Source: a virus. Taken from it: a DNA stretch of 30,490 bases. Positions 8,428 to 22,932 of the stretch are shown here, piece after piece. The notes beneath the pieces were generated by a model. That model did not search any database. It was not told where the DNA came from and saw only the letters and a list, made by a program, of their open reading frames with translations. The DNA lies in the IMG/VR virus record IMGVR_UViG_3300044522_000142, positions 1 through 30,490 of that record; one strand, written 5' to 3'. The stretch's first letter is position 1, and each line of letters opens with the position of its first letter. The position numbers were made by a program, and so were the translations under genes.

Positions 8428-9906
8428 TCACCATACATTAGCAATCATAGGTGTAGGCGTATTACTTGAACGCCTAGTTGCACGATCAATAGCCATGCAC
8501 ATAGCAATGCACGCATCTATCTTTCTTCTGCTCTTACCTTTAGACAAACGCCAGCCTTGTTCTGTCATGCGCTGTGCAGCAGACAAAACCTGATCAGTGA
8601 ACATAGGTGAACCACCATGCACAATCTTCTTTCCAACAATAAATTCATAAGCAGTACCACACGCAGGTATCATTCTTTGTGATGACTGTGGAAACTCAAC
8701 CATTGGTAGCCCATCATCATAAAGTGCTTCTGCTGAACGCTGAAAAAATGCAGGGTCATAAGCAAATTCTTGAACTTCAAGTTCATTGTGCAGTTCACGC
8801 AGATGCGATTCAATAGCGTGAATATCAATGGCTTCTTGATCTGGGTGAAAGATCTTTGCCTGCACAGCAATGCGCCCATCTTCATGTGGCTGCGCTATCA
8901 CAATGCCTACACTGTCATGCTTTAATGCCATGTCAATGCCAACCCAGCAAGGATCATAAGCATTGATGGTGGCATCACCTGTGCATTGTTCCCACGCACC
9001 AACAGGTAGCCATGATTCTTGGCTGCGTGTCCACTGGTTTAATCTGAACCTGCGCATTGCTGCTTCACTAGATTGGCGTGCAGACACACGCATATCATCA
9101 AGATCTAACAAGCCCAACGCCAGATTAGGGTTGGCAATCTTCCATTGCTTTTCATCATTGATATCACAATCTGTTTTGGCTTCCCACCACCAGAAACCAA
9201 ACTGATCTTCACTGGCTTCACCAGCAGCAACCCTTTTGCCATACTGATACAAACGACCACACAAAGATTCAAGATCAAACCCAGCAGTGGTGATAGCAAC
9301 CACTAATGGATCTAGGCGTGCGCCAGAACCCATTGTTAGTGCGTCATACAAATCATCATTGCGTTGCACATGAAGTTCATCAAACACCACCAGTGATGGG
9401 TTTAATCCCTGTGCCAGTTTGCCATCTGAAGAAAGCACACGATAGATAGCACCAGTGGAAGGTACTTCAATAGCATCACGATAAACCTTGCATTCATTTA
9501 TCAAAGATGATGAACGCTGAATCTGATGTTTTGCTTCTTCAAAAACAATGCGTGCCTGCTGACGATCACCAGCAGCAGAATAAACTTCAGCACCTGCTTC
9601 ACCAGCAAACAACCCATACAACGCCAACGCTGAACCCAGCAAAGATTTACCTTGCTTTCTGGGCAGACCAATCAACGCACGCTTGTAACGCAACCTGCCA
9701 GCATCATTGCGTTCTAGCAATGCACGCAACAGCCACTGTTGCCAATCAGTAAAAGTTAAGGGTTCACCAGCACGCACACCTTTGGTAACACGCAAAAAAT
9801 ATTCTGCAAAAGCAATAACATCATCACCATCACTAATCACACTGCGCTGTGGTGTCGCATACGCAGGCTTCCACGCTTGCTTAGGCTTGGCTGGAACGCT
9901 TGCCAT
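8428..9906 (-). CDS. terL: Terminase large subunit
   Basis: A 492-aa packaging ATPase/nuclease of the Terminase_1 type. ATPase: Walker A GLPRKQGKS (80-88), Walker B LVVFDE (172-177), coupling motif ITTAGF (205-210). Nuclease: acidic GIDMALKHDS (about 323-332), with a late RRKIDACIAMCMA segment (about 467-479) carrying a third acid. It cuts and pumps DNA into the prohead through the portal. It overlaps the small subunit gene by 26 nt. The HNH gene upstream is a frequent partner of terminases of cos-type phages. Confidence 0.96.
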   Translation of the reverse strand: MASVPAKPKQAWKPAYATPQRSVISDGDDVIAFAEYFLRVTKGVRAGEPLTFTDWQQWLLRALLERNDAGRLRYKRALIGLPRKQGKSLLGSALALYGLFAGEAGAEVYSAAGDRQQARIVFEEAKHQIQRSSSLINECKVYRDAIEVPSTGAIYRVLSSDGKLAQGLNPSLVVFDELHVQRNDDLYDALTMGSGARLDPLVVAITTAGFDLESLCGRLYQYGKRVAAGEASEDQFGFWWWEAKTDCDINDEKQWKIANPNLALGLLDLDDMRVSARQSSEAAMRRFRLNQWTRSQESWLPVGAWEQCTGDATINAYDPCWVGIDMALKHDSVGIVIAQPHEDGRIAVQAKIFHPDQEAIDIHAIESHLRELHNELEVQEFAYDPAFFQRSAEALYDDGLPMVEFPQSSQRMIPACGTAYEFIVGKKIVHGGSPMFTDQVLSAAQRMTEQGWRLSKGKSRRKIDACIAMCMAIDRATRRSSNTPTPMIANVW

Positions 9907-13744: not shown

Positions 13745-13821
13745 TGCCAAATCTTTCTGTGTTTGTGAATGGCAATAGCCAAAATGGTTAGTACCACGCT
13801 GATTGTTATTAGATCTTCCAT
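13741..13821 (-). CDS. 26-aa membrane peptide
   Basis: MEDLITISVVLTILAIAIHK plus a basic end (HRKIWQ): one membrane helix with positive inside residues. The ribosome site AGAAAGACAGCA precedes the ATG, the same context seen at 1778 and 21525, and the stop overlaps the next ATG (ATGA). Small size limits certainty, but two independent start/stop signals support it. Confidence 0.62.
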   Translation of the reverse strand: MEDLITISVVLTILAIAIHKHRKIWQ

Positions 13822-13848
13822 GTGCTGTCTTTCTATTGATTGGGTGTG

Positions 13849-14103
13849 TCAGTTCACTTCATCACATGATGGGTGATACAACCAATCATCTTTTGCTATG
13901 TAATTGCCTTGCTTTATCAGCGCATCAATTTCAATTTTTGCACCACGCAAAGTTGGGCAAAGTTCATAATTGGGTTTTGCACTGCGCATCACAAATGTGT
14001 ATGCCCATTCTTTACCATTGGTGTAGTGGTAATCACGCTTAATGTGTACGCCACGATAAATGTAGCCATTAGCAATCTTGATGGTGGTTGTGGTTTTGTT
14101 CAT
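13849..14103 (-). CDS. Small protein, paralogue of 16636-16869
   Basis: 84 aa from the ATG at 14103, which stands 6 nt after a TATGAT -10 box. It resembles the 77-aa protein at 16636-16869: both begin MNK, then 'Y-YR---IK' (YIYRGVHIKRDY / YEYRDFIIKKTQ), an EWxY/W strand and a TLRGAKIEID / TLTNAKAFVD helix. An upstream ATG at 14145, coupled to the previous stop as TAATG, would add 14 residues (MNTSNTISTCYDSG), so two starts are possible. Function unknown. Confidence 0.68.
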   Translation of the reverse strand: MNKTTTTIKIANGYIYRGVHIKRDYHYTNGKEWAYTFVMRSAKPNYELCPTLRGAKIEIDALIKQGNYIAKDDWLYHPSCDEVN

Positions 14104-14109
14104 ACCTGA

Positions 14110-14115
14110 ATCATA
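14110..14115 (-). promoter_or_regulatory. Putative leaderless -10 box (TATGAT)
   Basis: TATGAT, then TCAGGT (14109-14104), then the ATG at 14103. The same box-spacer-ATG context occurs at 16869 (TATAAT-TCAGGT-ATG). No convincing -35 is seen 18 nt upstream. Confidence 0.45.
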
Positions 14116-14144
14116 ACAGGTGCTGATGGTGTTGCTGGTGTTCA

Positions 14145-14345
14145 TTATTTCATTGCCCATTTGACCACTGCAACAATTGCAAGTTCTGCGTTGTATTTGG
14201 TTTTGAAGTTGCGTGTTGATTTTGTGCGTATATCGGTAAGCAACCAATACTTTGCATCAGCAGTAATGATGCGTTCAATGGTGAACATTGATAAATCTTT
14301 GGTTTCCAGAATCAACTGGTTGATTGGTGTGTGATTCCTTTTCAT
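14145..14345 (-). CDS. Small protein of unknown function
   Basis: 66 aa from the ATG at 14345, coupled to the previous stop (TAATG). MKRNHTPINQLILETKD, then MFTIERIITADAKYWLLTD in beta-strand pattern, then a basic stretch (RTKSTRNFKTKYN) and a short hydrophobic helix (AELAIVAVVKWAMK). Both neighbours carry promoter-like starts, so it is probably co-transcribed from the 14545 promoter. The third of a trio of small proteins; no family recognised. Confidence 0.62.
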   Translation of the reverse strand: MKRNHTPINQLILETKDLSMFTIERIITADAKYWLLTDIRTKSTRNFKTKYNAELAIVAVVKWAMK

Positions 14346-14545
14346 TACTTTGATGCCCATTCCAACCAGCGAGTGTGAAAGTGAGACTGTGCGCACTTGG
14401 CACAAGTTACTTCTGCATTCAATAGTGGGCTACCAGTTCCTCTTGCACCACAAGCAAATTGGCGCATTCCATCAAATCCAAGATGGATTTTTGTGCCTGT
14501 GGCTGTTCTGCGTGGCTTCATTATATTTTGTGTGTTTGTTTCCAT
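14345..14545 (-). CDS. Small zinc-ribbon-like protein, leaderless start
   Basis: 66 aa. The ATG at 14545 is exactly 6 nt downstream of a TATAAT box, so the mRNA is expected to begin at the ATG. Residues include KIHLGFDGMRQFACGARGTG and VTCAKCAQSHFHTRW: one Cys, then CxxC and two His, a probable single zinc site. Small 'KIHL-x-CG...TC-x-x-C' proteins are common in actinophages. An in-frame upstream ATG at 14581 would place the promoter inside the gene and is rejected. Confidence 0.75.
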   Translation of the reverse strand: METNTQNIMKPRRTATGTKIHLGFDGMRQFACGARGTGSPLLNAEVTCAKCAQSHFHTRWLEWASK

Positions 14546-14551
14546 ACAGAC

Positions 14552-14581
14552 ATTATAAGCACACCTGATACTCAAACACAA
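14552..14581 (-). promoter_or_regulatory. Leaderless promoter of the 14545 gene
   Basis: -35 TTGTGT (14581-14576), 18-bp spacer, -10 TATAAT (14557-14552), then GTCTGT and the ATG at 14545. The transcription start predicted from the -10 box coincides with the A of ATG. Confidence 0.75.
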
Positions 14582-14590
14582 CCACCCTGT

Positions 14591-14616
14591 TCAAAGCCTT
14601 ATCTGGCAAGGGTTTT
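14591..14616 (-). promoter_or_regulatory. Upstream promoter element, copy 1
   Basis: On the minus strand AACCCTT, GCCAGAT, AAGGCTT: an inverted repeat with one mismatch. It begins right after the stop codon of the nuclease gene and ends about 10 nt before the -35 box of the 14545 promoter. Confidence 0.6.
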
Positions 14617-15067
14617 AGGATTGGTCATAGTAGGCAGCCAGCGCAGGTGCAATCAATTCAGCCCACACAGACAACTTGACCATCACCAGCCCATCAGACC
14701 ACCCATCAGGCATCAGCACAGCCCTAGTGGGCTTACGCAGACTTCCATAATCAGACTGGTTAGATAACACCTGTGCTTCAATACGCAGCCACGCTGTAAC
14801 TGCTGGCTGTATCTGCTTGCCTGCTTTGACTTCATTAGCAAACAATGAATCTTGCCAGTTTTCTTCATTGGCATCACCAAACTTGTTTGATGGTTTCACA
14901 CCTAAAGCCTTGCGTGCTGTGCGCTGCTTGGTCAAACCTTTGCGCCGATTCCTAGCACCCATGCAACGCTTGCAGGAACACCCACGCACATGACGCTGGT
15001 TAGTTATGTTGCCAAACAGTTCACACCCACATGGGCATTCACCTTTGCGTGGTGCTTCTTCTTCCAT
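14615..15067 (-). CDS. PD-(D/E)XK-like nuclease with zinc-binding N-terminus
   Basis: A 150-aa protein. N-terminal Cys clusters CPCGCELF and HVRGCSCKRCMGARNRRKGL (about 11-45) suggest zinc binding. Then FGDANEENWQDSLFANEVKA with the E-V-K signature (about 66-82), GKQIQPAVTAWLRIEAQ, and VLMPDGWSDGLVMVKLSVW. The E...EVKAG...AExQ pattern occurs in many actinophage nucleases that may act as Holliday junction resolvases or recombination nucleases. Catalysis is inferred. Its stop is followed at once by an upstream promoter element. Confidence 0.72.
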   Translation of the reverse strand: MEEEAPRKGECPCGCELFGNITNQRHVRGCSCKRCMGARNRRKGLTKQRTARKALGVKPSNKFGDANEENWQDSLFANEVKAGKQIQPAVTAWLRIEAQVLSNQSDYGSLRKPTRAVLMPDGWSDGLVMVKLSVWAELIAPALAAYYDQS

Positions 15068-15084
15068 TCATGCAGTGTAGAACA

Positions 15085-15594
15085 TCACTGATGGTTGTTC
15101 AGTTGCAATGCGCATTCAATGATGCGTGAATCTGTGATGCGTGCTGTGCGCACCTGTTCCATCACCAGTTCTAATAACTGTTCTAGTTCTTCACGCCTAC
15201 GCCTAGCCACAGTAGAAGCAGGTTCATCAATGCGTTCAGCATCTTCATATTTGTAACGCTGATTTGAATGCACATACACATGACACCTGTTGATCTTTTT
15301 GTGCAGCATGAACACAACACCATTCTGGTGAAGGATTGATAACGCACCAGATGATTGCCCATGATGCAGATTCAGCAAATCACCAACCTGTTGATAGGTC
15401 AAACCTTCTGGGTTGAGTGACAGCAGATGCAATATTTGTCTGGCACGCTTGATGGCTTTGCCATTGGCTGTTTCTCTCTTGGCTCTTTCCTTACTGGCAG
15501 GCTGATTGACAAAGCCTGCTGTGCCTGCGTAGGGCATCAGGTCATCATCTGATGGTTCTTGATTATCAAACAGGTTGGGTTGGTCACTGGTCAT
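15085..15594 (-). CDS. Winged-helix DNA-binding protein
   Basis: A 169-aa protein; ATG overlaps the previous stop as ATGA. An acidic start (NLFDNQEPSDDDLMPYAG), a basic linker, then a winged helix at about 48-105: KRARQILHLLSLNPEGLTYQ, QVGDLLNLHHGQSSGALSIL, and the wing VVFMLHKKINRCHVYV. The C-terminal coiled helix (RRRREELEQLLELVMEQVR) may dimerise it. Probably a transcription or replication regulator. It sits between the unknown 114-aa gene and the nuclease. Confidence 0.78.
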   Translation of the reverse strand: MTSDQPNLFDNQEPSDDDLMPYAGTAGFVNQPASKERAKRETANGKAIKRARQILHLLSLNPEGLTYQQVGDLLNLHHGQSSGALSILHQNGVVFMLHKKINRCHVYVHSNQRYKYEDAERIDEPASTVARRRREELEQLLELVMEQVRTARITDSRIIECALQLNNHQ

Positions 15595-15935
15595 TGTGTG
15601 TCTTTCAACTGGCGTGCTGCTGCGCCTACTGGATTAGTGGCGTAAATCCCTGATGCTCTGTCTTTCTCTCTTTGCTTGGCAAGTTCTAATGCGTACTGGT
15701 CAGTGCCTTTGCCAGATGCACGATCTGCTTGCCTGTCTGCTGCATCAACAGCAGCATCTGTGTTCATGTGTATTGCTGCTTGTAACAGTTCAGAAGCCAG
15801 ATCGCAAAGGTCTTGTACTGATAGTGGCAGTGATTGCACAGCGTTACCGTTGTGTGCGTAGTCACCCATGATCAGAAATGCTTTTGCGCCTAGCACTGTG
15901 CTGTGGCTTGTTATCACTTCTATTAATCTTCCCAT
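15591..15935 (-). CDS. Unknown early protein
   Basis: A 114-aa protein with GAKAFLIMGDYAHNGNAVQS, a helical LCDLASELLQAAIHMNTDAA, and a charged Ala/Arg-rich second half (AADRQADRASGKG, LAKQREKDRAS). The start overlaps the metalloprotein gene by 13 nt and the end overlaps the winged-helix gene by ATGA. No motif points to a function. It may be a partner of either neighbour, given the coupling. Confidence 0.65.
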   Translation of the reverse strand: MGRLIEVITSHSTVLGAKAFLIMGDYAHNGNAVQSLPLSVQDLCDLASELLQAAIHMNTDAAVDAADRQADRASGKGTDQYALELAKQREKDRASGIYATNPVGAAARQLKDTQ

Positions 15936-16639
15936 TGTGTTGTTGTCTTTTCTCTAGTGGGCAGTACCCAATCAATTAAATGTGTTGCTTGGTTTTGAAT
16001 GATGTAATCAACTGAATAACCCCATGTGGATACTTTGAAAAATGAGATGCTGCACTTCCAGCGTTTTTGCCACACTTCACGCAGGCACTGGTAGAACTCT
16101 TTTGAATGCACATCACGCTTACCATTAGCAGTGGCTTTTGGTGGTACTGCACAGTGCGCAAGTTCATGTGCCAACACTTGCCACACACGCCTGCTTCTGT
16201 GAATGGTTTGATCAAGATCTACATTCACTTGAATCAAGTTTATGAAAGACATAGCGTGACCATATTGCCTGCCACGATTCTGCCCACGCACGATCTTGAT
16301 TCTGGGTAGTGGTCTGCCATTGTGATACGGCTGCATCAAACGCCAGATGCGTTCTGCTTCTTTGTGAATCATCTTCACACGCTGCGCATCAATGCGTGCT
16401 TGCTCTTTGGCAGGTGCATTGTTTTTGCTGATGGTTGCACGCTTGGCTGTTGTCTTTTTCTTGGTGGTTTCTTTTTTTGCTTCACGCTTCTTTTCTAATG
16501 CTGGTGCGCTGCGTTCAACAAGCACACCTGCCTTTGCTGAACATGGCAGGCAGTACCTGCGCACATCATTCTTGCGTGGCTTGGTTGGTGCAATCACACC
16601 TGCGTTGCAGGTTGGGCATTTCCATCTGGCGTTCATCAT
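15923..16639 (-). CDS. SprT-like zinc metalloprotein
   Basis: A 238-aa protein. N-terminal zinc ribbon C8-x2-C11 and C30-x2-C33, a Lys/Thr/Ala-rich basic linker (about 48-80), then a SprT-like domain with HELAH (158-162) and a later His in DVHSKEFY (178), which supply the HExxH...H zinc site. SprT/Spartan-type proteases act on DNA-bound proteins. In a phage this could clear DNA-protein crosslinks or act on host proteins. The upstream gene overlaps it by ATGA (a second ATG at 16636 is possible). Confidence 0.85.
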   Translation of the reverse strand: MMNARWKCPTCNAGVIAPTKPRKNDVRRYCLPCSAKAGVLVERSAPALEKKREAKKETTKKKTTAKRATISKNNAPAKEQARIDAQRVKMIHKEAERIWRLMQPYHNGRPLPRIKIVRGQNRGRQYGHAMSFINLIQVNVDLDQTIHRSRRVWQVLAHELAHCAVPPKATANGKRDVHSKEFYQCLREVWQKRWKCSISFFKVSTWGYSVDYIIQNQATHLIDWVLPTREKTTTQWED

Positions 16640-16869
16640 TCACCATCAATTCTTGAATCAACAAATGCTTTTGCATTCGTCAATGTTCTGAAGTAATGAT
16701 CTGTGTAACTTTTGCTGCTGCCAAACATTGTGGTGCTTTTGCTTTTCCAGTTACGCCATACCCATTCACCATCTTGTGTTTTCTTGATAATGAAATCACG
16801 ATATTCATATGCTGGTTGTCCATACCCTGTGACTTTGATTGCTTTGTGTGTGGTTATGTTTTTGTTCAT
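16636..16869 (-). CDS. Small protein with leaderless start, paralogue of 13849-14103
   Basis: 77 aa from the ATG at 16869, exactly 6 nt after TATAAT; an upstream ATG at 16953 would read through the promoter. It has alternating strands (QPAYEYRDFIIKKTQDGEWV) and a C-terminal helix (FRTLTNAKAFVDSRID). It resembles the 84-aa protein at 13849-14103 in start context, length and strand-helix order. Together they look like an early protein family produced from leaderless mRNAs. Function unknown. Confidence 0.75.
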   Translation of the reverse strand: MNKNITTHKAIKVTGYGQPAYEYRDFIIKKTQDGEWVWRNWKSKSTTMFGSSKSYTDHYFRTLTNAKAFVDSRIDGE

Positions 16870-16875
16870 ACCTGA

Positions 16876-16905
16876 ATTATAACCACCAGTTATACCTTTA
16901 CGCAA
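16876..16905 (-). promoter_or_regulatory. Leaderless promoter of the 16869 gene
   Basis: -35 TTGCGT (16905-16900), 18-bp spacer, -10 TATAAT (16881-16876), then TCAGGT and the ATG. The region shares GGTGGTTATA with the promoter at 20729-20758. Confidence 0.8.
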
Positions 16906-16913
16906 GTATCCCT

Positions 16914-16937
16914 TCAAAGCCTTATCTGGCTTGGGTT
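16914..16937 (-). promoter_or_regulatory. Upstream promoter element, copy 2
   Basis: Minus strand AACCCAA, GCCAGAT, AAGGCTTTG: the same core GCCAGATAAGGCTTTG as copy 1. It stands about 45 nt upstream of the ATG at 16869. Confidence 0.6.
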
Positions 16938-16952
16938 CCAAAGCCCCAGCCA

Positions 16953-17168
16953 TTAGCGCAACTTTTTCTTAGAGTGAATGCGCTTCACCCGATCAGGCAT
17001 GAATGATCGGTACATGGCATGACCTGTCTTGCCCCCATAACAAGTGATGCTGCCATCACTCATGTTCTGGTAAAGGTATTTGAATCTTCCTGATTCACCA
17101 GTGATTGATATTTCTGTGTTGCGTTCAAGAATCCTGTTATTGATTTTGAACAATGTTGTTTGTTTCAT
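16953..17168 (-). CDS. Conserved-type small basic protein
   Basis: 71 aa from the ATG at 17168 (the GTG at 17174 is less likely). Beta-rich: LFKINNRILERNTEISITGE, FKYLYQNMSDGSITCYGG, then MPDRVKRIHSKKKLR. The 'F-P-x-RVK-x-V/IH-x-KKK-x-R' ending is common to small proteins in actinophages; function unknown. A TAAAGT box 6 nt before the ATG suggests another leaderless start. It ends just before promoter element copy 2. Confidence 0.72.
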   Translation of the reverse strand: MKQTTLFKINNRILERNTEISITGESGRFKYLYQNMSDGSITCYGGKTGHAMYRSFMPDRVKRIHSKKKLR

Positions 17169-17174
17169 AACCAC

Positions 17175-17180
17175 ACTTTA
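17175..17180 (-). promoter_or_regulatory. Possible leaderless -10 box (TAAAGT)
   Basis: TAAAGT, then GTGGTT and the ATG at 17168, keeping the 6-nt rule. The -35 match is poor, so this is weaker than the 14552 and 16876 promoters. Confidence 0.4.
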
Positions 17181-17239
17181 TCACATTGGGTTTTTTTGAA
17201 ATTGCAAAACAGCCCCAAAACAGAGAAACCAAAAAATGT

Positions 17240-17256
17240 AACCCTTGCAACATAAG
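17240..17256 (+). promoter_or_regulatory. Upstream promoter element, degenerate copy 3
   Basis: Plus strand AACCCTTGCAACATAAG, matching the core of the copy at 20771 at 15 of 17 bases. It lies about 72 nt upstream of the ATG at 17168. Confidence 0.4.
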
Positions 17257-17260
17257 CATC

Positions 17261-17284
17261 AAAAATAATTTGAAAAATAATTTG
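17261..17284. repeat. Two exact tandem 12-bp AT-rich repeats
   Basis: AAAAATAATTTG occurs at 17261-17272 and again at 17273-17284. It is part of the AT-rich gap of 134 bp between the ERF gene and the 71-aa gene. It could be a DNA-unwinding segment or a regulatory site; nothing else is seen in the gap except the degenerate element copy. Confidence 0.6.
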
Positions 17285-17302
17285 ACACGATTTCAGAAAG
17301 TT

Positions 17303-18034
17303 TTACGCAATGGCAAACTTGCCATCAGAACCCAACACAATTTCTGCTTCACCCTTGCGCACTGACAACAGCGCATCAATTACTTTCTTAGCAACTTGTG
17401 ATGACATACCAGCAATGCCAGAACCAAACTGATCTACCAACAGTTGTTCATCACATTCTGTTTGGCGCAACAAGTTGTTGATGAAGTTTGTTTGCGCTTC
17501 AGTGATAACTGCACCTGATGTTTTAGTTGGTGGTTTGTTAGGTTGCGCAGCCTGCTGTGGTCTTTCAATGCGTGTTGGTTGTTCACGGTTTGGTGCATCA
17601 TGCGCTGATCTCTCATAAGTATCTGAATCAGGGTCTGCTTCATCAGTTGGTAAGCACAGTGTTTGTAGCAGTGCTGTTCTGAATGCAACGCTGTATGCCT
17701 TTGCTGTGGCTTTGTCCCCACTGTCCATAGATTCTGCACTGACAGTTGCAGCCACGCTTGAACCATCTGGTGCGTAGAAGGTGTAGGTGATTGTGATGCG
17801 TGCGTGTCCCATCACTGTTCTGTTCTGCCCTACCTGCACAGATTCATAATCACTGGTGATTACTGTTGGTACTACAACAACGCCATGCTTGCGCAACGCT
17901 GGTGACACAGCATTTATCACTGCGTCAATTCCTCTGAAGTTGAACTTCTGGTGGCTGTTGAAATCACCCTTCTTCACTGCACCTGCATCTGTCATCACTT
18001 GTGTAAGCAGGCTGTATATCTGTGGCTGTGTCAT
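17303..18034 (-). CDS. ERF-family single-strand annealing protein
   Basis: 243 aa from the ATG at 18034 (TGATG overlap with the exonuclease gene; AAAGG 9 nt upstream). The N-terminal 150 residues match ERF: KFNFRGIDAVINAVSPALRK (about 30-49), HGVVVVPTV, ITYTFYAPDGSSVAATV, MDSGDKATAKAYSVAFRTAL, LCLPTDEADPD. The C-terminal part is a Pro/Gln/Thr linker and a small helical domain (TNFINNLLRQTECDEQLLVD). It anneals complementary ssDNA made by the neighbouring exonuclease, for recombination-dependent replication or end joining. Confidence 0.92.
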   Translation of the reverse strand: MTQPQIYSLLTQVMTDAGAVKKGDFNSHQKFNFRGIDAVINAVSPALRKHGVVVVPTVITSDYESVQVGQNRTVMGHARITITYTFYAPDGSSVAATVSAESMDSGDKATAKAYSVAFRTALLQTLCLPTDEADPDSDTYERSAHDAPNREQPTRIERPQQAAQPNKPPTKTSGAVITEAQTNFINNLLRQTECDEQLLVDQFGSGIAGMSSQVAKKVIDALLSVRKGEAEIVLGSDGKFAIA

Positions 18035-18948
18035 CACACTGCACCTTTCACTGTGCGCATCACTCTGAATGATGTGGTTTTGCTGAACTGTTTAGCCATG
18101 TCTGGGTGTGCATCATTGAATGCTTTGCTGTCAAATCGGCTGGTTGATTGGGCTTTGAATGTCAATACCTTTTGACCATCAATGCTGGCTATTTCGTGTT
18201 CACGCATGAGGTTGGCAAGTTTGTCTTTCAGATCGTTTTCGAGTTGCTGTATTTCTTTCAACGCTGCTTTGGCTGCGTTCCATTCCATAATCAGTGATAG
18301 TGATGCACTGTCTAGTTGCAGTTCCCCAGATGGCTGTGGGTGCAGCAGTGATACCTGTGTGTAGTTCAGTGGCACATCTTCTGGCAGTTTGTCTGCATCA
18401 ATGGATTCACAGAACGCTGTAACCCTTTCAACCATCAATTCAATATCATTGTTGTGGCGTTCAACATTAAACATACTGATACGCAGTTGGCGATCTAACA
18501 CCACAAAAGTAACCAGTTCAGCACCACTGCAAAACATCTGTGCTTGTGCTTGCCAATACCATTCAGGCAGGCACTGTTCATTGGCAACCCATTTGGTAGT
18601 GGTCTTGCATTCAATCAAACGCCCATCATCAGCAAGCCCATCAAGCGTGGCTATCAACCTGCCATTCAGGTACATCACTTCTGGTGTTTCAACTTGCAGG
18701 TTTAGTTCTTCTTGCGCTGCTGTAATCAATCCTGATTCAAGCCATGTGCCACGCTTCATTGCTTCATTCTGTTCACGCACTACTGGTGGCTGCATTTTTT
18801 CTATAGCCAAATCAATAATGTTTTTCCAGTCATTGCAACCCATGATGCTTGATACTTCTGATGCGCCCACAATGGTTTGCCCATCATGCTTGTGGCGTGT
18901 CTGCAACCATTCAAGGGTGCCATGTGTGGGTTTAGTTATTTTCTTCAT
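18034..18948 (-). CDS. YqaJ-like viral recombinase/exonuclease
   Basis: 304 aa from the ATG at 18948; the longer frame to 19023 would begin inside the promoter region. Nuclease motifs: GASEVSSIMG (28-37), RGTWLESGL (66-74), ATLDGLADDGRLIECKTT (100-117) with the D...ExK core, and WYWQAQAQM (130-138). The last third is helical with a coiled segment (AALKEIQQLENDLKDKLA). It is the lambda-exonuclease-like partner of the ERF protein downstream, resecting ends to give 3' ssDNA. A CATAGT box 6 nt before the ATG suggests leaderless expression. Confidence 0.93.
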   Translation of the reverse strand: MKKITKPTHGTLEWLQTRHKHDGQTIVGASEVSSIMGCNDWKNIIDLAIEKMQPPVVREQNEAMKRGTWLESGLITAAQEELNLQVETPEVMYLNGRLIATLDGLADDGRLIECKTTTKWVANEQCLPEWYWQAQAQMFCSGAELVTFVVLDRQLRISMFNVERHNNDIELMVERVTAFCESIDADKLPEDVPLNYTQVSLLHPQPSGELQLDSASLSLIMEWNAAKAALKEIQQLENDLKDKLANLMREHEIASIDGQKVLTFKAQSTSRFDSKAFNDAHPDMAKQFSKTTSFRVMRTVKGAV

Positions 18949-18954
18949 GTGATA

Positions 18955-18960
18955 ACTATG
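18955..18960 (-). promoter_or_regulatory. Possible -10 box of the recombination operon (CATAGT)
   Basis: TGT-CATAGT (extended -10 type), then TATCAC and the ATG at 18948, again 6 nt. The best -35 at 18-bp spacing is TTCAAG, which is weak. Confidence 0.45.
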
Positions 18961-18996
18961 ACAGATGGGTGTGTCATACTTGAAACCCACAAATGC

Positions 18997-19030
18997 AAAA
19001 ACCCTTACTGAACTAGCCAGCAAGGGTTTT
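18997..19030. promoter_or_regulatory. Upstream promoter element, copy 4 (9-bp inverted repeat)
   Basis: AAAACCCTT (18998-19006) and AAGGGTTTT (19022-19030) form a perfect 9-bp stem with a 15-nt centre. It begins about 49 nt upstream of the ATG at 18948 and lies between the divergent recombination and replication genes. On the minus strand the second arm ends in T5, so it could also stop antisense transcripts. Confidence 0.6.
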
Positions 19031-19121
19031 CACATGAACAAACATAACAACGCTTTAGCGCAACCATGCAGATGCTGATGGTACCACCTAGAGTGTCAAA
19101 CCCACGCATGAAAGAACAAAC

Positions 19122-19871
19122 ATGACACAAAGAATCACTGCTGATAATTACTTTTCAATAGTGCCTGAATGGGTTTTATACGCTGATGTTTCAGCGTTGG
19201 CTGTCAGGCTGTACGCAACACTTCAACGGTATGCAGACAAAGATTCTGGTGGCTGCCACCCATCACGCAAAACCCTTGCAGATCGTTGTATCACCACAAC
19301 CAAAAGTATTGATAGAGCATTGAAAGAACTGGTTGCTTTGGGTGCTGTGAGTATGCACCAACGCACATCAGCCAATGGTGATCTGACTAGCAATCATTAC
19401 ACAGTGATAACTAATGCTGGGGTAGAGACAAAAACGCCCCTACCTAGAGACAATAAAGCACCTACAGGTAGGGACAAAAACAACCCTAGAACTATAGTCA
19501 GTATTAACCAGAGTCAAGAACAGGCAAGCGTGAACACACTTGCTGATGAATGGTGGCAGTTGTACAAGACACGCACAGGTGGCAAAACGCCAACAGGTAA
19601 GCGTGCGTTTTTTGCTTTGCAATCTGTGATCAGTGCTGCATTGGATTCTGGCTGGTCTGTTGATGATGTGCGTGATGCCCTGACCAGATGCGCCACTGTT
19701 CCTAGTGTGATGCAGTTTGATAGGGAACTGGCAAAGGTTCTACAATCCACACAGACCAGCCCCACACGCTCTGTAGGCGTTTGTTTCAGGTGTAAGGGTA
19801 CAAAGATGCGTATGGGCTGGAATGACGCTGGCACAGCACTGGTTGATGATCTGCCTTGTGATGTGTGCTGA
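19122..19871 (+). CDS. Replication initiator-like protein (winged helix, DnaD-like, zinc end)
   Basis: A 249-aa protein on the opposite strand to its neighbours. N-terminal winged helix (about 20-95): ALAVRLYATLQRYADKDSGG, HPSRKTLADRCITTTKSIDR, ALKELVALGAVSMHQR. A polar linker, then DEWWQLYKTRTGGK and a helical domain (VDDVRDALTRC). C-terminal zinc site C221-x2-C224 and C246-x2-C249. HTH_36/DnaD-like proteins of this layout initiate phage replication and load host helicase. No phage polymerase or helicase was found, which fits. AACCCTTGCAGAT inside the gene (19269-19281) resembles the upstream element. Confidence 0.8.
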   Translation: MTQRITADNYFSIVPEWVLYADVSALAVRLYATLQRYADKDSGGCHPSRKTLADRCITTTKSIDRALKELVALGAVSMHQRTSANGDLTSNHYTVITNAGVETKTPLPRDNKAPTGRDKNNPRTIVSINQSQEQASVNTLADEWWQLYKTRTGGKTPTGKRAFFALQSVISAALDSGWSVDDVRDALTRCATVPSVMQFDRELAKVLQSTQTSPTRSVGVCFRCKGTKMRMGWNDAGTALVDDLPCDVC

Positions 19872-19872
19872 C

Positions 19873-19906
19873 ACAAACAAAAGCCCCACCCATTACAGGT
19901 GGGGCT
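19873..19906 (-). terminator. Intrinsic terminator for minus-strand genes
   Basis: AGCCCCACC (19882-19890) pairs with GGTGGGGCT (19898-19906). On the minus strand the stem is followed by TTTTGTTTGT, so it ends the transcript of the 20682-19922 genes. It also lies just after the plus-strand initiator gene, but without a plus-strand U-tract. Confidence 0.8.
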
Positions 19907-19921
19907 AATGCTGGGGGATTG

Positions 19922-20176
19922 TTACTGGTTCTTTGTGCGTGCAACCAATGCTTTGAATTCCTTAGCAAACTTTTCTGCTTCTGCGTCATATGGCTGGAAG
20001 TCATGCACTGTGTCTAATGCACAGAATGCAGAACGATTACGCCCACCAACTTTGCGCATCACCACTGTTAATCCTTCTAGTGAGAACCAGCCATCAACAG
20101 TTCTGAAACTGTAATCGGGTTTCATGTAGGTGATTGTTCCACGCTGCTCTGTGTAGTTAAGTCCATTGGTGTTCAT
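19922..20176 (-). CDS. Unknown small early protein
   Basis: An 84-aa protein coupled to the gene before by TAATG. It begins MNTNGLNYTEQRGTITYMKP and has short beta strands: YSFRTVDGWFSLEGLTVVMR; then KVGGRNRSAFCALDTVHDFQ and a helical end (AEKFAKEFKALVARTK). No recognised motif. It is the last gene of a two-gene unit with its own promoter (20729-20758) and terminator. Confidence 0.7.
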   Translation of the reverse strand: MNTNGLNYTEQRGTITYMKPDYSFRTVDGWFSLEGLTVVMRKVGGRNRSAFCALDTVHDFQPYDAEAEKFAKEFKALVARTKNQ

Positions 20177-20682
20177 TACTTACCTGCCTTTGCAAATGTA
20201 ATTGTGTTCAACAAAGTTAATAATTGATTTGCGTTATTTACATCAAGTTCAATCTTAAATGTTGTTGCTGATGTTGAAAAATTATATTCTTTGTTTTCAA
20301 TGTTAAGTGTTTTCAACAAGCGTGCAAGTTCAGGTTTGATTTGATTCATTGCATCAATGTTTTGTTCTTGTGCAATCTTAAAGTTTTTACTGCGTTCAGC
20401 CATGACAACTTTGTGTGTTGTGTAATTTTCAATTGATTCACTGAATACGCCACTAACAATGCGCAATGATTTGTTTTGAACATTATTGCTGATAGTGGTG
20501 GTCTTTGTTTCTTCATTGAAATAAACTTGCTTTGTTTGTGCATACACCATTGGTGTTTTGTACTTGCTGCGTGATTCTTTAACAAAACCAACAACGATAA
20601 AATCTCCGTTGTATCTGGCGTTGCTATTAAAAATTGTTGTTGGTGCTTCGTTGATAATTTCTTGAATCTCTGATTGTTTCAT
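20176..20682 (-). CDS. Unknown early protein
   Basis: A 168-aa protein. Start supported by AAAGGAAA before the ATG; the leader is about 40 nt from the predicted start site at 20722. Helix (SEIQEIINEAPTTI), a long beta-rich stretch (DFIVVGFVKESRSKYKTPMV, TKTTTISNNVQNKSLRIVSG) and an Asn-rich end (LDVNNANQLLTLLNTIT). It has no motif I can name. Promoter and terminator make it and the 84-aa gene a separate unit transcribed toward the initiator gene. Confidence 0.7.
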   Translation of the reverse strand: MKQSEIQEIINEAPTTIFNSNARYNGDFIVVGFVKESRSKYKTPMVYAQTKQVYFNEETKTTTISNNVQNKSLRIVSGVFSESIENYTTHKVVMAERSKNFKIAQEQNIDAMNQIKPELARLLKTLNIENKEYNFSTSATTFKIELDVNNANQLLTLLNTITFAKAGK

Positions 20683-20728
20683 GGCTGGGTTTCCTTTGGT
20701 TTATGTCAGGTTGATTCCTGATACCAGA

Positions 20729-20758
20729 ACTATAACCACCATTTATATCTACTTGCAA
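20729..20758 (-). promoter_or_regulatory. Promoter of the 20682 unit
   Basis: -35 TTGCAA (20758-20753), 18-bp spacer, -10 TATAGT (20734-20729). It shares GGTGGTTATA and the following TTCnGGTAT with the 16876 promoter, but here the start is not an ATG: the message has a leader with a ribosome site. Confidence 0.75.
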
Positions 20759-20770
20759 GCATCAATTTAT

Positions 20771-20791
20771 AACCCTTGCCAGATAAGGGTT
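20771..20791. promoter_or_regulatory. Upstream promoter element, copy 5 (perfect 7-bp palindrome)
   Basis: AACCCTT (20771-20777) and AAGGGTT (20785-20791) around GCCAGAT. The 3' edge is 12 bp above the -35 box of the 20729 promoter. It is the most symmetric of the five copies. Confidence 0.65.
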
Positions 20792-20856
20792 TCAACCGAT
20801 TGCCACCACAGTGACACAACCTGTGATTAGGGTTTAACCCACCAGCCCCTAGTTAC

Positions 20857-20976
20857 CCACCAAGCGTGGTCATAATCAAATCTGCCTAGCGCACCCAGCA
20901 TTGCACCAGATGTGCCTGTAAGCCTGTGACAGTAGCGCAAACGCCAGTACGGGATACAGACAGCCACCAAGCGTGG
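20857..20976. repeat. 13-bp direct repeat pair
   Basis: CCACCAAGCGTGG occurs at 20857-20869 and 20964-20976. Each copy is itself a short inverted repeat (CCAC / GTGG, 5-nt centre). The copies are 107 bp apart, upstream of the plus-strand unit. Possible operator for one of the helix-turn-helix proteins. Confidence 0.55.
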
Positions 20977-21010
20977 AAATCCTTTACAGCGTGGCAGGGA
21001 AAGCACACCC

Positions 21011-21502
21011 ATGAAACACCCAGCCACACGCATCATCATCATTGCTTTACTTCTGCATCTGCTGATCTTTGCTTTGTTCGCACAGGACAGCAAAGCAGCC
21101 ACATATTCAGACAGTAAAGAATTACCTTGCCAGCAATGGCATCAGTTGATGCGTGACAATGGGCTACCAGTAAAAGTGTTTGCAGGGATTATGTACCGTG
21201 AATCAAGATGCCAGCAAACTGCTGTTGGCTGGAACTACAAAAAGGGTTACGACCATGACAACTGCAAACTGTCACCAGCAGCCACATACCGTAAATGCAG
21301 GTATATAAGTTCTTATGATATCGGGTTGTTGCAAATCAACAGCACATGGAAATCACTTACCTACCAAACTTGCAAAACCAAAGAGATACTTACCCTGCAA
21401 AAGCCAAGTTGCAATCTGGCAGTTGCAGCATTGATCTACAACAAAGGATTAGGGTTGGGCAACTGGCGTGCAACAAGCAATGGTAATATCAGTACCAAGT
21501 AA
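21011..21502 (+). CDS. Secreted lysozyme-like transglycosylase
   Basis: A 163-aa protein. Residues 7-23 are a hydrophobic signal (RIIIIALLLHLLIFALF) with a probable cleavage after SKA (29). The domain has AGIMYRESRC (58-67, catalytic Glu64), SSYDIGLLQINSTW (100-113) and AALIYNKGLGLGNWR (139-153): the SLT/lysozyme 'E...GLxQI...A' pattern with paired cysteines, as in exported enzymes. It cuts glycan strands of peptidoglycan outside the membrane. It is on the other strand from the lysis genes and in one unit with two regulators, so it may not be the main endolysin. Confidence 0.85.
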   Translation: MKHPATRIIIIALLLHLLIFALFAQDSKAATYSDSKELPCQQWHQLMRDNGLPVKVFAGIMYRESRCQQTAVGWNYKKGYDHDNCKLSPAATYRKCRYISSYDIGLLQINSTWKSLTYQTCKTKEILTLQKPSCNLAVAALIYNKGLGLGNWRATSNGNISTK

Positions 21503-21524
21503 CCCACCCCTAGAAAGACAGCAT

Positions 21525-21797
21525 ATGCCAAAGAAAAAAACACTAAGCCCAGAGATACTGAACTACAGCGCAACAGCGATCCTGTCTGCACGCATCAGCG
21601 CAGGTGTAAGCCAGCGTGATCTATCAGTACGCATGGGAATCACACAACCATTGATTAGCGCATGGGAACATGGCAAATCTGTACCATCACTTCACCATCT
21701 TGTTGCCATTGAAACTTCATTGGGTTTATCAACAGGTGAATTGATTATGCCGATTGCATACCCAACGCATCATGGGGATTTACCCAGCAACAACTAA
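21525..21797 (+). CDS. XRE-family helix-turn-helix regulator
   Basis: 90 aa from the ATG at 21525, with the AGAAAGACAGCA ribosome context; the earlier ATG at 21468 overlaps the lysozyme gene. Residues about 16-70 are an XRE fold: ATAILSARISAGVSQRDLSV, RMGITQPLISAWEHGKSVPS, LHHLVAIETSLGLSTGELIM. It is short, with no dimerisation domain, like Cro or a small repressor. Candidate operators are the repeats in 20683-21010. It is 2 nt from the next gene. Confidence 0.85.
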   Translation: MPKKKTLSPEILNYSATAILSARISAGVSQRDLSVRMGITQPLISAWEHGKSVPSLHHLVAIETSLGLSTGELIMPIAYPTHHGDLPSNN

Positions 21798-21799
21798 GC

Positions 21800-22057
21800 A
21801 TGACTGAAGTAGGTGTTGAAGATGCGTGGAAGCGTGAGAGAGTAGCAAGGCTTTCAACAACACCTATATTGCGTGCCATAGATAACTTACCTGTGCGTGA
21901 TGCTGCACAACTGCTTGGTGTCAATATCGGCACTGTAGTGAAATGGCGTGCCAGTGAAGGAACAGCCACAGTGCATTATGCAAGAGCAGACAGAATTGCA
22001 ATCAGGCTTGGTGTTCACCCTGCATATATGTGGGGCAAAGAATGGTGGCAGATTTAG
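21800..22057 (+). CDS. Small helix-turn-helix protein
   Basis: An 85-aa protein. DAAQLLGVNIGTVVKWRASE (about 34-53) is a DNA-reading helix pair, followed by YARADRIAIRLGVHPAYMWG with the 'AD-IA-RLG-HP--VWG' ending known from actinophage regulators. The C-terminus WGKEWWQI is short. It forms the end of the plus-strand unit and is followed by a strong terminator. With the XRE gene before it, it may be a repressor/antirepressor or excisionase-like pair. The end of the 12109-12489 protein (GYHPSEIFG) has a similar motif. Confidence 0.8.
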   Translation: MTEVGVEDAWKRERVARLSTTPILRAIDNLPVRDAAQLLGVNIGTVVKWRASEGTATVHYARADRIAIRLGVHPAYMWGKEWWQI

Positions 22058-22064
22058 ACAGCAG

Positions 22065-22106
22065 AAAACCCCAGCACACTTGTTTGGTTTGTGTGCTGGG
22101 GTTTTT
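22065..22106. terminator. Strong bidirectional intrinsic terminator
   Basis: AAAACCCCAGCACAC (22065-22079) pairs perfectly with GTGTGCTGGGGTTTT (22091-22105), with an 11-nt loop. T-rich tails follow on the plus strand (TTTTTCTTT), and TTTTCTG on the minus strand. It separates the regulator unit from the convergent lysis operon. Confidence 0.93.
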
Positions 22107-22156
22107 CTTTACAAGGTGGGCAGGGTCAGCAGACAGCGAGCCAACCCCACCCAGAT

Positions 22157-22687
22157 CTATTCTGGCTTAGGCAATTCACGCCATCTTTTTTCAAACTCTT
22201 GCGCTGTCATATCAGAAACTTCTATGTGCAACCAGCGTGGTGAACCTTCAAATGATCCAGCATTATCATCTTTGGTGAAAATCTTTACACCCGATTTTCC
22301 TGAACCTCTACTGCAACGCCACCCTGCACCAAAATCACCATACGCATACCAATGTATTTCACATAACGCTAAGTGTTCACTGTGTTCTACTTCTTTGCCA
22401 TCAATCACTGATGAACCTAGAAACCAATCCCACATCTGGCGTGCAACAGTTTCATCACGGTATTGAATATCGGCTGCAAAACCAGTTGCGTGAACTGATA
22501 AATACTTTTCATACCCTGCATCACCGATCTTCATATTTTTGGTGTGGCTGTTACGCATCAAACGCACTGTGTATGTACCCAAAGATTTTGTTTGCCAACG
22601 GGCATTACACAACGCAACAAGTTTTGCTGTTACTTTCTTTTCACCACCCCCATTAAAACTTGGGTAGTAGGGATATTTTCTGGGCAT
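22157..22687 (-). CDS. M15-type peptidase endolysin
   Basis: A 176-aa protein. SVHATGFAADIQ (64-75) gives the His66 and Asp73 zinc ligands of the S-x-H-x-x-G-x-A-x-D signature, and RWLHIEV (151-157) gives His154. This is the M15/VanY-like fold used by many endolysins to cut L-Ala-D-Glu or D-Ala peptide bonds. Without a signal it needs a holin; two small membrane proteins are encoded just upstream (TGATG junction). It ends facing the strong terminator. Confidence 0.87.
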   Translation of the reverse strand: MPRKYPYYPSFNGGGEKKVTAKLVALCNARWQTKSLGTYTVRLMRNSHTKNMKIGDAGYEKYLSVHATGFAADIQYRDETVARQMWDWFLGSSVIDGKEVEHSEHLALCEIHWYAYGDFGAGWRCSRGSGKSGVKIFTKDDNAGSFEGSPRWLHIEVSDMTAQEFEKRWRELPKPE

Positions 22688-22932
22688 CAGTTTTGCTTTT
22701 CTTCTGGTGTTACACCAGTGAATGCTGCATTGATTTCAGCAGCAGTTAGGTTGCCATCAACAGATGATCTTGCAAGTCTTTCAATCACTGTCACACAGGC
22801 ACTGATGCCTGCAAGCAACGCTGATTTGGCTACTGGAATACCACCAATGATGGAAGCACCACCAATGATTGCCATTGCATTCACAACAAATGTGCTGATG
22901 ATGCGCTGAATAATACTAATTGCAGTTTTCAT
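22687..22932 (-). CDS. Small membrane protein, holin candidate
   Basis: An 81-aa protein with two hydrophobic stretches (about 9-30 and 31-50, INSIDE: IISTFVVNAMAIIGGASIIG; PVAKSALLAGISACVTVIER) and a short polar tail. It lies directly before the endolysin with a TGATG overlap, the usual holin position. Its start overlaps the 56-aa gene by ATGA. Either of these two could be the holin and the other an antiholin. Confidence 0.78.
   Translation of the reverse strand: MKTAISIIQRIISTFVVNAMAIIGGASIIGGIPVAKSALLAGISACVTVIERLARSSVDGNLTAAEINAAFTGVTPEEKQN

Follow-up and report, generated by a model that had tools for sequence, protein, structure and literature searches.

A repeated palindrome-promoter-start module ahead of unrelated genes in a group of uncultured phages, and its possible reading by a phage-coded regulator

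We describe a repeated module of about 90 bp in the putative early region of an uncultured phage, IMG/VR record IMGVR_UViG_3300044522_000142 (30,490 bases, referred to throughout as the window), and in its relatives, in which a palindrome, a promoter at fixed spacing, a start codon and the first codons of the following gene are kept as a unit while the coding sequence behind them changes. We propose, with a probability of roughly 0.48, that the palindrome is the operator of a phage-coded helix-turn-helix (HTH) regulator, most likely an XRE protein or the small HTH protein encoded beside it, which would more likely activate than repress a set of leaderless early promoters from a class I position.

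Within the window, the palindrome AACCCTT-N7-AAGGGTT occurs five times with at most three mismatches, against 1.0 expected and with none of 100 shuffles reaching five; the fifth match, at 9744, lies within the terminase gene and is probably due to chance. The pattern TTG-N21-TATAAT-N6-ATG, allowing one mismatch, has exactly two occurrences, both on the minus strand (14581-14543 and 16905-16867), where 0.36 would be expected by chance and two were reached in 2 of 100 shuffles. Because a generic sigma70 scan of the window reveals no promoter excess (9 versus 13.5 +/- 3.3), the window alone is suggestive only, and it is the comparison with relatives, where the sequence evidence is overwhelming, that settles the matter. 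Three full modules and one degenerate site are present in the window (Table 1). An earlier note made from this DNA alone had listed five copies of the element, among which those placed at 14591, 16914, 17240 and 20771 are genuine, with the exact limits given in Table 1, the copy at 17240 being degenerate as claimed, with its left arm lost and 59 bp to the -10 box. The GCCAGAT centre that the same note assigned to the element is not general, only RYnnnRY being kept across relatives. Its 18-bp spacers at the promoters at 14552, 16876 and 20729 are correct, and its sequence of TATAAT, 6 nt and ATG applies to the two pattern matches above but not to the promoter at 20729, where ATC follows and the gene starts at 20682.

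Relatives were gathered with the YqaJ protein (60-97% identical), the terminase and other queries, and modules were compiled from the window and 17 related contigs by profile search and reading of each site, yielding 38 modules, 32 of them non-redundant (less than 85% identical to each other). The 21-bp palindrome follows the consensus AACCCTTRYnnnRYAAGGSTT, with arm positions almost invariant among the non-redundant modules, and is followed by 10-12 bp, the TTG of the -35 element, about 18 bp containing (T/G)ATnA and TGTG, and a -10 box of the form TAnnnT, mostly TATAAT, TATGAT or TAATCT. About half of the non-redundant modules carry an extra AGGGT, placed about one helical turn downstream of the right arm. 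The distance from the palindrome to the -10 box is 34, 35 or 36 bp in all but two of the 38 modules, and the two exceptions, at 55 and 56 bp, are about two helical turns longer; judged by sequence, the locus 1 site of contig G003 also has the longer form. As many as 32 of the 34 palindromes with at most one mismatch head such a promoter, compared to a 2.2% success rate for a comparable promoter call at random positions. The earlier note had stated that its proposal would fall if the element were missing from homologous promoters in relatives or showed no spacing bias to transcription starts; the element is present at those promoters, and its distance to the -10 box is very tight.

The gap between the -10 box and the ATG is 6 nt in 27 and 7 nt in 5 of the 32 non-redundant modules, as in genes with leaderless mRNAs, and a Shine-Dalgarno-like 4-mer precedes none of 36 module genes, against 9 of 41 other genes in the window. 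Based on this distance and on the lack of Shine-Dalgarno sequences, the module promoters are predicted to be leaderless, with transcripts beginning at the A of the ATG. The first codons are rich in A and C, encoding METNT, MNTNT, MNKNT and similar peptides; their conservation covers codons 1-5 and goes no further, and over these five codons A+C content reaches 88% in module genes versus 63%. CA repeats 3' of the start codon have been reported to enhance leaderless translation (PMC9031893), which offers an explanation for the conservation of these codons, since they would probably aid translation from a leaderless start.

Behind this uniform start, the 38 first genes are short, nearly all lack known domains and they constitute 35 families without detectable relation, and a scan of 31 cargo representatives returned three isolated Pfam and three PHROG matches, revealing no common function. 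Among 17 modules with unrelated cargo, mean pairwise identity is about 0.3 upstream, 0.84 in the palindrome and 0.8 at the start codon, and is down to 0.3 by about codon 10. About five positions recur as module sites: one next to the xre operon, one following erf, one following the 14615 gene, one ahead of the 13505 gene and one on the side of the holin. A phage has up to five copies, all within the non-structural block. The products of some cargo genes end in KAGK, and there the next start overlaps the stop codon, as TAATG or TGATG. The leaderless starts, the conserved first codons, the unrelated cargo and the orientation of the 20771 site towards a divergent xre operon had all escaped the earlier note.

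The diversity of cargo, with 35 unrelated families behind 38 modules, could also indicate that the module is mainly a recombination handle, whose repeats let small genes swap behind a ready promoter and start, with regulation being secondary. Near-identical modules with unrelated cargo point in the same direction: the modules at 549 and 7564 of G009 (a relative contig of L007/L089) are 98% identical and share the same next gene start, a pair that may reflect a recent event at the flanks, either duplication or gene conversion, and modules of G005 and L056 show 97% identity. Most module pairs within one genome, however, are at most 76% identical, and the arms, the TG, the -10 box and the ATG remain fixed while other columns decay, so that selection on function is needed; a handle with only secondary regulation appears highly unlikely.

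The palindrome often stands directly after a stop codon, and similar palindromes elsewhere are terminator-like, as would be expected if it were an RNA hairpin or the terminator of the upstream gene. Yet 7 of 32 modules have a Watson-Crick pair at inner positions 8/14 and likewise 7 of 32 at 9/13, where about 16 would be expected in either case (Fisher p 0.003 and 0.002; 0.002 and 0.004 for distinct palindromes, with relatedness not corrected), arm position 19 is often mismatched and no T-run follows the palindrome. The sites at 14594 and 16917 fold no better than shuffles (z -0.4 and -1.2), and the somewhat better folding at 20771 (z -2.6) is as expected of a perfect palindrome. The avoidance of pairing at inner positions indicates that the palindrome is read as double-stranded DNA, and on this evidence and that of folding the hairpin or terminator reading was rejected, the probability left to it being minimal. 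An Rfam search over 13800-22700 returned no match. The fifth copy of the earlier note, at 18997, is of a different nature: its arms are 15 nt apart within an 18-bp hairpin (z -6.7) that relatives keep with changed sequence, losing the AACCCTT arms, and it is possibly a terminator or an origin element.

The locus 1 operator has an early operon on one side and the divergent lyz-xre-hth operon on the other, and its position is symmetric: a TAGGGT box stands on the xre side 36-37 bp from the palindrome in 10 of 10 contigs, whereas eight modules at other loci show no box of this type on their reverse side. At this locus, the regulator would probably control its own operon too. The main candidate for that role, the XRE protein, keeps its recognition helix, TQPL(I/V)S(A/S)WE, at an overall protein identity of 46-52%. 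The second candidate, the small HTH protein, is 74-98% identical in all module-bearing phages holding the region; its model gives weak fold-search matches, many of lambda-repressor type (best E 0.16), and the protein has no match in isolated phages or PHROGs. Both genes are present in those module-bearing contigs in which the region is covered, and neither was found in six structural relatives that lack modules. That a DNA-binding regulator acts on a group of early promoters, as the earlier note suggested, is retained as the best reading. We infer that this regulator is phage-coded, as that note also supposed, since the operator stands beside the xre-hth operon, the XRE recognition helix is kept and the host genomes searched do not contain the module.

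Early phage promoters often rely on host factors, and a class I position would suit a CRP-like host activator, so that the palindrome could be the operator of a host transcription factor co-opted to drive early genes on entry. The closest isolated phages by terminase, Pontimonas phage phiPsal1 (39%) and Streptomyces phages around phiBT1 (34%), make an actinobacterium the likely host. A scan of 84,980 host genomes, using a single strict pattern on one collection outside of which the phage's host may lie, produced 77 matches; all are bare palindromes, many of them terminator-like, and the module accompanies none of them (best nhmmer about 26 bits). A host factor as the reader of the palindrome is distinctly unlikely on this evidence.

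In the mechanism that we favor, the XRE protein or the adjacent small HTH protein would bind the 21-bp palindrome as a dimer. If the transcript starts at the A of the ATG, the dyad centre falls at about -58 to -59, and at about -79 in the longer form. Class I activators stand at about this position, from which the bound dimer would touch RNA polymerase, with activation more likely than repression. In this manner, a single regulator would switch several early mini-operons, spread over about five positions in the genome, and the gene heading each of them would be a small accessory gene that is freely exchanged. The same regulator and operator may instead serve repression, with the XRE protein silencing its own operon as well as the early cassette promoters, in immunity or in an early-to-late switch, like the repressors of phiC31 and SPbeta. 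A divergent operator with XRE/Cro-like genes next to it is the classic repressor layout, and repeated operators in known phages are mostly repressor sites (SPBRE/MrpR, PMC10516654; phiC31 sites recovered here). The operator, however, lies above the -35 element and overlaps neither promoter element, and its spacing is fixed within 2 bp or differs by about two turns; such narrow spacing with a two-turn step fits contact with RNA polymerase, and a repressor site would not need it. The phiC31 sites, moreover, keep no fixed distance to the repeated early-promoter sequence of that phage. In addition, searches of seven contigs of about 30 kb for both types of integrase found none, which weakens the reading as a lysogeny repressor. 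Given the class I position, the spacing and the lack of an integrase, we prefer activation over repression by roughly two to one, a repressor being unlikely, though by no means negligible.

Several observations weigh against activation by a dedicated phage protein. The presence of the TTG of a -35 element means that the promoters may work unaided, and GalR-type repressors also act from about -60. The 55-56-bp class occurs at one locus of related phages and may stem from a single event, and the relatives behind all module counts are not independent samples. Phages without the module also lack most of the early region, so that co-occurrence singles out no protein.

Operators that recur ahead of numerous phage genes have precedents. 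The conserved inverted repeats of Streptomyces phage phiC31 are operators of its c repressor; their sequence was recovered de novo from the phiC31 record. About ten of them are spread over the early region of this member of an actinophage group with distantly related terminase (34%), and the modules described here are likewise confined in several copies to the early region. The phiC31 palindrome, CCTACTCACGTGAGTAGG, has no central gap and shows no fixed distance to a repeated early-promoter sequence, its c repressor is large whereas the XRE protein has 90 aa, and there are no matches to it in the window with up to three mismatches. In SPbeta, one element (SPBRE) stands before many phage genes of mostly unknown function and is read by one phage protein, MrpR (PMC10516654), in an arrangement akin to the one proposed here. 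SPBRE differs in being a 15-bp motif bound by a repressor with a tyrosine-recombinase fold, and no match to PF00589, which represents this fold, was found in the seven phage contigs, although a very distant relative could escape a sequence search.

By geometry, the closest mechanistic analogue would be the Ogr/delta promoters, with a dyad near -55. The phage activator Ogr/delta uses the dyad TGT-N12-ACA of P2/P4 late promoters (PMC3931495), which, like the palindrome here, keeps a constant upstream spacing across a group of phage promoters, but the activator is a zinc-finger protein of the form CX2CX22CX4C acting on late genes, the dyad has a different sequence and no leaderless start module is involved. 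Closest in use are the start-associated sequences (SAS/ESAS) of cluster K phages, a start-linked repeat with an upstream inverted repeat before genes of different families in the non-structural half of the genome (PMC3203893). The SAS carries a Shine-Dalgarno core 3-7 bp before the start, whereas the palindrome here lies about 48 bp above an ATG without one, and the 13-bp SAS sequence, GGGATAGGAGCCC, has no match in the window. Cluster A stoperators are sites of one repressor repeated over the phage genome. They are asymmetric 13-bp sequences, GGTGGMTGTCAAG, in contrast to the palindrome, and have four weak matches in the window versus 1.7 expected, which is at chance level. The likeness to stoperators and SAS drawn by the earlier note is therefore apt as an analogy and does not extend to sequence, in which the element matches neither of these nor the phiC31 repeats. 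We know of no clear precedent for an operator, promoter, start codon and first codons conserved as a unit before changing genes.

We tentatively put forward the module as a plug-in expression socket, in which a dedicated early phage activator would serve a fixed operator-promoter-start cassette, first five codons included, at about five positions, and small unrelated genes would be swapped in by recombination, finding transcription and leaderless translation ready-made. If so, the swapped genes may perhaps function in host takeover or counter-defence, and the module marks orphan genes as candidates for such roles. The module also provides a sequence rule by which the genes heading early mini-operons can be found in uncultured phages that probably infect actinobacteria, and a clean example of operator, promoter spacing, leaderless start and first codons kept as a unit while the coding cargo changes, and it renders the regulator-operator pair directly testable.

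Table 1. Module components, candidate regulators and neighboring features in the window.
Feature	Position	Strand	Details
Operator, locus 1, AACCCTT-ATCTGGC-AAGGGTT	20771-20791	-	0 mismatches; same locus in 9 other contigs
Early promoter (predicted), locus 1: TTGCAA, 18 bp, TATAGT	20729-20758	-	-10 is 36 bp below operator
Predicted leader, locus 1	20683-20728	-	ATC at expected ATG, then TCAGG-N6-CCTGA, AAAGGAAA; gene starts 20682
First gene of operon 1, no known family	20176-20682	-	Family searches
TAGGGT, -10-like box, lyz-xre-hth operon	20828-20833	+	36 bp from locus 1 operator
Operator, locus 2, AACCCAAGCCAGATAAGGCTT	16917-16937	-	3 mismatches; whole-module nhmmer E 1.3e-12
Predicted leaderless promoter: TTGCGT, 18 bp, TATAAT, 6 nt, ATG	16867-16905	-	Pattern match
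Cargo gene, 77 aa, MNKNITTHK...	16636-16869	-	Without relative in other phages
Operator, locus 3, AACCCTTGCCAGATAAGGCTT	14594-14614	-	1 mismatch; whole-module nhmmer E 5e-21
AGGGT, possible third half-site	14584-14588	-	About one helical turn below right arm
Predicted leaderless promoter: TTGTGT, 18 bp, TATAAT, 6 nt, ATG	14543-14581	-	Pattern match
Cargo gene, 66 aa, METNTQN...	14345-14545	-	Without relative in other phages
Degenerate operator, left arm lost	17240-17260	-	59 bp above TAAAGT; same layout in relative L006
Conserved hairpin, not part of a module	18994-19034	-	Between replication-initiator-like gene and yqaJ; 18-bp, z -6.7
XRE/HTH_3 protein, main candidate regulator	21528-21797	+	Pfam HTH_3 E 6e-12
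Small HTH protein, second candidate regulator	21800-22057	+	Same operon as xre
Replication-initiator-like gene	19122-19871	+	Sequence and family comparison
lyz-xre-hth operon	21011-22057	+	Lysozyme-like gene, xre, small hth gene

The early block of the window, which has no megablast match in isolated phages, comprises yqaJ, erf, a SprT-like gene and a Myb-like gene on the minus strand; lyz is a shorthand name for a lysozyme-like gene, its function being a guess from reading the sequence. The TAAAGT below the degenerate site lies 6 nt before the ATG of the gene at 16953-17168. In the module of gene 20176, the predicted transcript start coincides with the TCAGG-N6-CCTGA hairpin and AAAGGAAA precedes the true start; the change from ATG to ATC at locus 1 is also seen in G005 (23337). 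Operon 1 is closed by a strong intrinsic-terminator-like hairpin, AGCCCCACCTGTAATGGGTGGGGCT-TTTG (19882-19906, minus strand), and similar sequence follows cargo genes in G001, G002 and L179. Ahead of the lyz-xre-hth operon, CCACCAAGCGTGG occurs twice on the plus strand (20857-20869 and 20964-20976) and most relatives keep a ACCACnnnnGTGGT-like palindrome at the place of the first copy, an element that is possibly the operator of the second HTH protein.

A ATGGAAACCAAC start and the same core, but no palindrome, characterize promoters in G002 (26078), G004 (25118), G003 (22422), G006 (19853), G005 (25466) and L090 (8478), several of them with one half-site-like AAGSCTT or AACCCTT about 56 bp above the -10 box. 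Two more distant relatives, G011 (15173) and L035 (4287), carry one copy each of a variant palindrome, AACCCGTRCTGGCATAGGGTT, followed by TTGAATGATTTGCAA. The 47-kb IMG/VR contig 3300032038_000163 (L086) has two GCTGAAACCCTT...AAGGCTT palindromes without a promoter module, and a Bombilactobacillus mellifer plasmid (L118, 1871-4253) has three CTCAAACCCTTGTGCCGCAAGGGTTTGAG-like palindromes with GTTGACA behind them; this repeated, operator-like element is similar in sequence but unrelated. Finally, the yqaJ promoter region (18945-18975, minus strand) carries TGAC(A/G)CACCCA(T/C)CTG, conserved in relatives, with a -10-like box 6 nt before the ATG and no palindrome module, and is predicted to represent a second class of leaderless promoter.

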